Below, piece by piece: positions 29,029 to 30,941 of a stretch of DNA of 64,000 nucleotides (position 1 is the stretch's first letter; the number at the start of each line of letters is the position of its first letter). The notes under the pieces were generated by a model. It was given only the letters and a program-made list of their open reading frames with translations, ran no database searches and was not told the origin of the DNA. Source of the stretch: Pseudomonadales bacterium (GTDB taxonomy: Bacteria; Pseudomonadota; Gammaproteobacteria; Pseudomonadales; Pseudohongiellaceae); NCBI GenBank assembly GCA_023268635.1, contig JALQUB010000064.1:1-64000 (forward strand). Direction: 5' to 3'. Both the position numbers and the translations under genes were made by a program.

Positions 29029-29796
29029 TCAAATAGCGTAATCGAGAATAACTGGCGCATGGTCTGAGAAATTCTCATCACGATAGATGGATGCGCTCTG
29101 TGTTTTACTCGCCAGTTCAGGCGAGACAACATGATAGTCGAGTCGCCAGCCGACGTTTTTGGCTCGCGCCTGCCCTCGGTTCGACCACCAAGAATATTCA
29201 TCAGGCGATTGATTTACACACCTGAATGCATCGACAAAGCCCACCTCGTCGAATAGCTCATCTAACCAGGCACGCTCTTCCGGTAGAAAGCCCGAATTTT
29301 TCTGATTAGCCTTCCAATTACGAATATCTATCTCTTTATGGCATATGTTCCAGTCACCACACACAATGTAACGCCGCGAGTCCTGCGCAAGCTCCCTCAT
29401 ATAGCCCATAAAATACTCAAGGAATCTCATCTTACGTGCCTGTCTTTCATCGCCGCTGGAGCCCGACGGAAGATACAGCGATATAACGCTCAGATCGCCA
29501 AAGTCAGCTTGGATATAACGCCCTTCTGTATCAGCAATATCCAAGCCGATACCCTTGTGAATGCGATCGGGCTCCACTCGACTATAGATAGCAGTTCCCG
29601 AATACCCCTTCTTCTCAGCATCGAAATAATAGCAATGGTAGCCCTCAGGGCTAAACATCGGGTCAGTTAACTGATCGATTTGTGCCTTAGTCTCCTGCAG
29701 GCAAACCACATCAGCCGCCGTCGTAGGCAGCCAATCAAAAAAGCCCTTGCGCGCAGCTGCGCGAATGCCATTACAGTTCAGGGAAATAATTCTCAT
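29029..29796 (-). CDS. Exodeoxyribonuclease III family
   Basis: MRIISLNCNGIRAAARKGFFDWL, VVCLQETKAQ, CGDWNICHKEIDIRN, WRLDYHVVSPEL, FSDHAPVILDY. Confidence 0.94.
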   Translation of the reverse strand: MRIISLNCNGIRAAARKGFFDWLPTTAADVVCLQETKAQIDQLTDPMFSPEGYHCYYFDAEKKGYSGTAIYSRVEPDRIHKGIGLDIADTEGRYIQADFGDLSVISLYLPSGSSGDERQARKMRFLEYFMGYMRELAQDSRRYIVCGDWNICHKEIDIRNWKANQKNSGFLPEERAWLDELFDEVGFVDAFRCVNQSPDEYSWWSNRGQARAKNVGWRLDYHVVSPELASKTQSASIYRDENFSDHAPVILDYAI

Positions 29797-29897
29797 TAAT
29801 TAAAAATCTCTCGGCGCCTTAATTTTCCACCCTTCGCGTTGAAACTCCAATCGCACTGTAGACAGGAACAAAGGGGTATTTGGGCGAAGTGTTACCT

Positions 29898-29913
29898 TGT
29901 GACTCAGGTCACA
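29898..29913. promoter_or_regulatory. Perfect CRP/Vfr-type palindrome
   Basis: TGTGACTCAGGTCACA = TGTGA-N6-TCACA with both half-sites exact. Intergenic, about 100 bp upstream of the exodeoxyribonuclease III gene start and about 280 bp upstream of the 30195 sORF. Confidence 0.5.
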
Positions 29914-30095
29914 TTATCTCGTTTTAACAGTGTGTTAGCAGCTTTATTTCGAAAATTTGCCCATGCACCGACTCAAAACTGACACTTTCCAATAATTCTA
30001 ATATTATCTAACATATTGATTTTAAATGTAATTATTATTGACCGACTGGATTTCAGCACCAAAGGTAACAAAAACAAAATAAATACAAAAAAGTG

Positions 30096-30124
30096 TTACC
30101 AATTTCCCCGGATTGTGTTACTAT
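30096..30124 (+). promoter_or_regulatory. Candidate sigma70 promoter for the 37-aa sORF
   Basis: TTACCA - 17 bp - TACTAT (4/6 and 4/6 to consensus), about 70 bp upstream of the sORF start. Confidence 0.45.
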
Positions 30125-30194
30125 TCTTTTCGTTGCTGGATATGGAGGCGTTGGGCCCCACACTAAAGCAACACATCTGATCCAGGAGTAAGTC

Positions 30195-30308
30195 ATGAGC
30201 AACGCACTCAAAAGAGCGCGCCCTGTAGTTGAAGCCACAGTAGTCAGCGTCGCGTTAATCGTCGCCGCCATCTCTGTGCCTGCGGCCATCGTGCTCACCA
30301 GCGTCTAA
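30195..30308 (+). CDS. Small single-TM membrane protein, 37 aa (not in the supplied ORF list)
   Basis: ATG-led MSNALKRARPVVEATVVSVALIVAAISVPAAIVLTSV-stop; RBS-like CAGGAG about 8 nt upstream; positively charged N-terminus then a hydrophobic helix; followed by a strong same-strand terminator. Confidence 0.65.
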   Translation: MSNALKRARPVVEATVVSVALIVAAISVPAAIVLTSV

Positions 30309-30400
30309 ACGCTGGAAACCTAATTACCGCTCGCGAGCCGATAGCTCGAGAGCAATTGAATTTGTTCGACCCCCTGCAAGTGTTTTTCTGTGCATCTTCA

Positions 30401-30435
30401 ACACCAAATCCTCTCCGGATTTGGTGTTTTTTTTT
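30401..30435 (+). terminator. Strong rho-independent terminator after the 37-aa sORF
   Basis: ACACCAAATCC-TCTCC-GGATTTGGTGT, perfect 11-bp stem, 5-nt loop, followed by a run of Ts. Confidence 0.93.
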
Positions 30436-30443
30436 GGCTAAAA

Positions 30444-30941
30444 TTAAAGCTTATCAGCAAAATTACAGGGCTTATGCGCGCTGTCTAGCTGCTCGGCAAT
30501 AATCTTGTCCCACCCCGTAACACAGGCCCCAGGAGAGCCCGGCAAGCAAAATACGATCGTGCTATTAGCTATGCCCGCGAAGGCTCGTGATTGCACCGTT
30601 GAAGTCCCTATTTCGGCATACGAAAGTTGACGGAACAATTCCCCGAATCCGTCGATATCGACATCGAATAACAGCTTAATCGCCTTCTGAGTGTTATCCC
30701 TCGCAGTAAACCCAGTGCCACCAGTCAACAGAATTCCCTGAACTTCAGAATCGGCTATTAAGCGAGAAACTTCCGCGCGAAGTACGTAAACGTCATCAGG
30801 GACGATAGATTTATGAACGAGTCGATGGCCTGCAGCCACGAGCCTGTCTACTAAGACTTTGCCTGACTTATCCGTCTCTTCCGTTCGAGTATCCGACACC
30901 GTGATGACGGCAAGTTTTAGTTGTTTCGATTTCTCAGTCAT
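30444..30941 (-). CDS. moaB: Molybdenum cofactor biosynthesis protein B
   Basis: LAVITVSDTRTEETDKSGKVLVDRL, GILLTGGTGFTARDNT, CLPGSPGACVTGWDKII. Confidence 0.94.
   Translation of the reverse strand: MTEKSKQLKLAVITVSDTRTEETDKSGKVLVDRLVAAGHRLVHKSIVPDDVYVLRAEVSRLIADSEVQGILLTGGTGFTARDNTQKAIKLLFDVDIDGFGELFRQLSYAEIGTSTVQSRAFAGIANSTIVFCLPGSPGACVTGWDKIIAEQLDSAHKPCNFADKL

Follow-up and report, generated by a model that had tools for sequence, protein, structure and literature searches.

A short ORF for a predicted membrane protein between xth and moaB

The locus lies in a window, by which we mean the whole 64-kb stretch of DNA that was analyzed, and is built around a 37-aa ORF. As can be seen in Table 1, this ORF is preceded by candidate regulatory sites, a promoter and a hairpin in the 5' UTR, and followed by a second hairpin and an intrinsic terminator. 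The first-pass annotation had placed it between two convergent-side neighbors, which is correct for moaB, whereas xth is divergent. It had also described a 37-aa ORF with a good ribosome-binding site, and this is borne out since the frame opens with an ATG behind a well-placed AGGAG. Short ORFs are in general common in the window; this one is the sole ATG ORF of 30-60 aa in its entire length that combines a Shine-Dalgarno sequence with a strongly hydrophobic 19-residue stretch.

Table 1. Positions of genes and sequence features at the microprotein locus (window coordinates)
Feature	Position	Strand	Remarks
xth, exodeoxyribonuclease III, divergent neighbor	29029..29796	-	TIGR00633, E 1e-83
Distal GTTAC box adjoining CRP site	29887..29896	+	
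Perfect CRP-type site TGTGACTCAGGTCACA	29898..29913	.	219 nt upstream of -10 end
GTTAC box at -35 position	30091..30100	+	22 bp from GTTAC of -10 element
Extended -10 element TGTGTTACTAT (TRTG-n-TACNAT)	30114..30124	+	Conserved in 64 loci; arrangement unique in genome
5' UTR hairpin GTTGCT...AGCAAC	30132..30172	+	Conserved among six closest relatives
Shine-Dalgarno AGGAG	30184..30188	+	6 nt before ATG; conserved in alignment of relatives
37-aa single-helix membrane protein ORF (predicted)	30195..30308, including stop	+	Coding conservation, hydropathy, helix 3-36
3' UTR hairpin GCTCGCGAGC...GCTCGAGAGC	30329..30353	+	Where relatives have mini-ORF hairpin
Intrinsic terminator, 12-pair stem and T-run	30400..30434	+	Stem 30400-30428
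moaB, molybdenum cofactor protein B, convergent neighbor	30444..30941	-	TIGR02667, E 3e-75

AlphaFold models the product as one helix with a pLDDT of 93, and its KD19 hydropathy reaches a maximum of 2.74 at residues 16-34. On evolutionary and predicted evidence, it thus has the size (<50 codons) and the one hydrophobic helix of membrane-spanning length that define small single-span membrane proteins. Searches of Pfam, NCBIfam, PHROG and PDB with the protein returned no match, in line with the first reading of this DNA, in which no family had been recognized. Relatives are also absent from viral contigs, and a phage origin was rejected on that ground.

Coding conservation and distribution

Homologues are present in 71 of the 84 genomes of the genus. 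In most of the remaining members moaB is missing or lies at a contig edge, so that these absences do not establish genuine loss. The contig search was run with a closer subset of sequences, the broader alignment being too diverse, and the genomes compared are mostly metagenome-assembled, all of the evidence being comparative. In nearly all genomes the gene is single copy and it is strictly syntenic, homologues in the genus sitting between xth and moaB with few exceptions. These neighbors are housekeeping genes, their adjacency probably only marks vertical inheritance, and no partner gene was found to co-occur with the microprotein gene. One copy is located outside the xth/moaB site (genome G019, L028 1405-1786) and is followed there by a 53-aa protein, MYEQNLQHSAVNFTEKNADPRLTELRRRTEARLDVRRITLEIDAFFEKKSSTD, without a family match. 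Genome G016 carries a second, diverged copy, MIVRKIIKNSRLIIEAILVSTGFLIISLVVPAVIVYSVI, elsewhere (L147 1476-1595, minus strand), and the apparent second copy in G033 adjoins a second moaA-moaB-xth set, perhaps through contamination.

The alignment of relatives displays the signature of a protein-coding sequence. Variation is much greater at third codon positions than at the other two (pS 0.67 vs pN 0.19), with entropies of 0.62, 0.34 and 1.5 at codon positions 1, 2 and 3. Length is fixed at 36-37 codons, indels and internal stops are absent, and the coding frame is interrupted in 0 of 46 sequences, while the other two same-strand frames contain stops in 46/46 and 25/46. Among 45 distinct intact sequences, Met1, Glu13, Ala14, Ala25, Pro29 and Ile32 are invariant, and Ser18 is nearly so. 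The codon-conservation check proposed at first pass therefore comes out on the side of a protein and, together with the single predicted helix and the conserved synteny, supports the membrane microprotein that had been proposed. Comparison shows that selection acts at the protein level, translation being judged from this evolutionary evidence, and by the same measure ORF 30195-30308 is a real, previously undescribed protein gene.

As for distribution, the homologues fall in the OM182/Pseudohongiella lineage, which we take to be the family Pseudohongiellaceae. Sister genera carry, at the same site and behind the same promoter, single-helix ORFs, 33-38 codons long, whose alignment with the ORF of the main genus is poor but which share with it a common architecture and an invariant proline ~8 residues from the end. 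Because these ORFs are syntenic and have the same promoter, the locus is, as judged from sequence, one that spans the OM182/Pseudohongiella family. A search of the order for the correctly spaced promoter pattern found promoter and matching microprotein together only in this family, and a profile search outside it gave nothing convincing. In G079, which belongs to another family of the order, the pattern also picked up an unrelated tandem array (L118 ~1500) built of the 21-bp unit TGTTACGATTACGCCGCTAGT. The host lineage comprises ocean bacteria known mostly from metagenome-assembled genomes, and a membrane microprotein found across it joins the small genes liable to be overlooked when annotation relies on similarity.

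Promoter and upstream sites

The promoter core, TGTTAC-N16-TGTTAC-N-AT, occurs once in the genome in this arrangement and can be read as a TRTGn-extended -10 element with a GTTAC box at -35. Both elements rank with the best-conserved bases of the 64 loci, and TTAC-TTAC pairs spaced by 22 were observed 55 times vs 0.7 expected. A generic promoter scan missed this promoter. Its -10 element lies 70 nt from the ATG, and the promoter first proposed about 70 bp upstream is thereby confirmed. In many relatives the -10 element is followed by GCGCCCCGY, as in Escherichia coli tyrT, a likeness that suggests a stable-RNA-type promoter in those genomes. Most relatives have a GC-rich discriminator, which makes a strong promoter plausible; against the abundant mRNA suggested at first pass stand the codon adaptation of the ORF, which is not raised, and the lack of such a discriminator in the window copy.

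Further upstream, at ~70-80 and 230-267 nt, TTAC-TTAC pairs at 10 bp are over-represented (35 vs 0.5 expected). The upstream region of E. coli ompF has the same 10-bp spacing, in TTTACTTTTGGTTACATATT, an OmpR site. CRP sites with at most one mismatch are found in 24 of the 64 loci and are perfect in 19, window included, compared with 0 of 1280 shuffles; the distance from the site to the -10 element downstream is 200-240 nt in nearly all of these 24 loci, and 57 nt in one. We infer from sequence that the regulators binding these candidate sites would be OmpR-like and CRP. The window copy has just one distal GTTAC box upstream, and TCTTTTCGT in place of GCGCCCCGY, hence no GC-rich discriminator, and both points count against the reading that we favor below.

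In the segment 29887-29913, within the interval between xth and the ORF, GTTAC box(es) and a CRP site form a conserved composite whose distance to the microprotein promoter is more constant than that to xth. A position of about -220 is unusually distant for activation, and the composite may belong to a further transcript that has escaped detection.

Terminator, hairpins and possible RNA-level constraint

The terminator begins 91 nt past the stop codon. That there is a terminator some 90 bp downstream had been noted at first pass and holds, although its stem has 12 pairs rather than the 11 bp reported. With an extended -10 promoter and a terminator of its own, the gene would give a transcript ~300 nt long, with a predicted start at about 30131 and a predicted end at about 30434. 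Folding of the whole transcript gives z = -3.1, and the 5' UTR hairpin alone has an energy not below that of shuffled sequences (z -0.79). In the window's own clade it is the 5' UTR that is conserved, and not the 3' UTR. Strong covariation was not found in the 3' hairpin, since in its two alternative registers 98 and 20 of 500 shuffles attained the covariation score, and Rfam holds no match to the transcript near the gathering score.

Two observations concern the RNA itself. In moderately close pairs, the ORF shows ~3-5x less change at synonymous sites than xth and moaB do, mainly in one or two clades; high translation was rejected as the cause, the codon adaptation of the ORF being ordinary and not raised. 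In addition, in one sub-lineage (L024, L030, L097, L099 and L101) the protein decays, with a 10-nt deletion and a lost stop in G018 (L030) and a weaker hydrophobicity of the product in L097, L099 and L101, while the 3' hairpin, a 12-nt spacer and the terminator stay nearly invariant. A broken frame with a preserved RNA had been named at first pass as the mark of an sRNA; it is seen in this sub-lineage only and does not make the window copy an sRNA. Because the protein can decay while the RNA end stays, and because synonymous sites are slow without raised codon adaptation, the RNA may have a role of its own, which goes beyond what was first proposed.

Possible role of the microprotein

We consider it somewhat more probable than not that the locus is a stand-alone gene for an accessory single-span inner-membrane protein, which packs against a partner, is regulated via the envelope and is encoded on a short mRNA that may have a dual function. 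In favor of this reading are the presence and synteny of the gene across the genus, its substitution pattern and invariant positions, the modeled helix, the sister-genus ORFs, the promoter boxes and CRP sites, and the spacing shared with ompF. For a product whose coding is shown by comparison, we infer insertion in the membrane with the Lys/Arg-rich N terminus staying in the cytoplasm, and a span of residues ~12-36 that would be bent at the invariant Pro29. Glu13, Ala14, Ser18, Ala25, Pro29 and Ile32 would pack against a larger membrane protein, the activity of which the microprotein would adjust. Expression would be tuned by an OmpR-type response regulator through the tandem GTTAC boxes, and distally by CRP. 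The invariant residues and promoter boxes are direct handles for mutagenesis. Several points count against an accessory protein: the lack of a co-occurring partner gene, the sub-lineage that lost the protein and kept the RNA end, the codon adaptation, and a conserved helix face that was rejected, being suggestive at most (p = 0.09).

Our working model, which is not a family assignment, is AcrZ, a 49-aa E. coli protein that serves as an accessory helix of the AcrB pump, requires a bend at a mid-helix proline for AcrB binding, and is oriented with its N terminus out and its C terminus in, with a cytoplasmic tail (PMC7267776). The microprotein is likewise predicted to be a short single-helix membrane protein with a mid-helix proline. 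However, the charged N terminus of the microprotein predicts the opposite topology, it has no tail, and no AcrZ-family sequence match was found in Pfam, NCBIfam or PDB.

The main rival, which we regard as possible if rather doubtful, is a dual-function RNA that would encode the microprotein and also, in the manner of an Hfq-type regulatory RNA, act by way of the 3' hairpin, the spacer and the terminator. A small ORF under protein selection agrees with it, as does the folding of the whole transcript, but no seed sequence is common to the clades and no described RNA family was matched. The slow synonymous sites point the same way, with the reservation that they come mainly from one or two clades. 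The RNA end that outlives the protein is likewise in its favor, but a terminator would be conserved for termination anyway, the 3' hairpin covaries weakly, and the window's clade does not conserve the 3' UTR. A precedent is VcdRP of Vibrio cholerae, which combines a 29-aa protein, VcdP, that binds citrate synthase with a base-pairing RNA (PMC8672173). It resembles our transcript in being short, in its small ORF, its link to CRP and the evidence of RNA-level constraint, and differs in that the microprotein is a predicted membrane helix and its transcript has neither a recognized base-pairing segment nor an Rfam match.

A pure small RNA with an incidental ORF is very improbable. The compact promoter-terminator layout and the few genomes in which the RNA end outlasts the frame would suit it, but codon-type substitution, constant length, a stop-free frame and the conserved Shine-Dalgarno sequence and ATG refute it for most of the genus. 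Genus-wide conservation likewise refutes a chance ORF in an intergenic region, a reading that the frequency of short ORFs in the window might invite and to which we give next to no credence. Size, single helix and hydrophobicity would be compatible with depolarization of the membrane upon induction, as by a stress peptide or a type I toxin, and YohP, a small stress-induced membrane protein of E. coli, does dissipate the membrane potential (PMC12719787). We nevertheless think such a function unlikely, given a single-copy, strictly syntenic and vertically inherited gene without a multicopy or mobile pattern or viral relatives. With YohP and other small membrane proteins of E. coli, the microprotein shares a length under 50 aa, a predicted place in the membrane and the lack of a catalytic domain, a likeness of size and kind.

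A mini-ORF that ends at the terminator

Most of the genus has an ATG 20-25 nt past the main stop, nearly always with a good Shine-Dalgarno sequence. In 29 of 30 distinct sequences the frame that it opens is closed after 9-11 codons, whereas stops in the other frames scatter, and the in-frame stop usually abuts the terminator stem. A mini-ORF of 9-11 codons is found in all 12 independent lineages that have the downstream ATG (12/12; binomial tail 1e-12). Its peptide is not conserved past the first residues, and its start lies within a predicted hairpin with weak covariation. The window species has the hairpin only, without the start codon or mini-ORF.

One tentative explanation, which we rate as rather unlikely, is that the transcript of the OM182/Pseudohongiella family has a dual function, encoding the microprotein and then, in most lineages of the genus, a translationally coupled mini-ORF, and that what is functional is translation as far as the terminator, or else the end of the RNA. 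Conservation would then bear on the start, the length and the placing of the stop against the base of the terminator, and not on the peptide. A mini-ORF that ends at a terminator is an unusual arrangement, through which the role of end-of-transcript translation could become testable.

In some sister-genus loci, the first small ORF is followed by a second, longer one of 37-45 aa, such as MIDQISHESAGVLMLNMLAVTLFLALPAWTVFTASAL. These ORFs, found ~270 nt after the promoter in L123, at 1302-1421 in L109 and from 1272 onward in L098 (moaB-minus orientation), may have a relationship with the mini-ORF found in the main genus.
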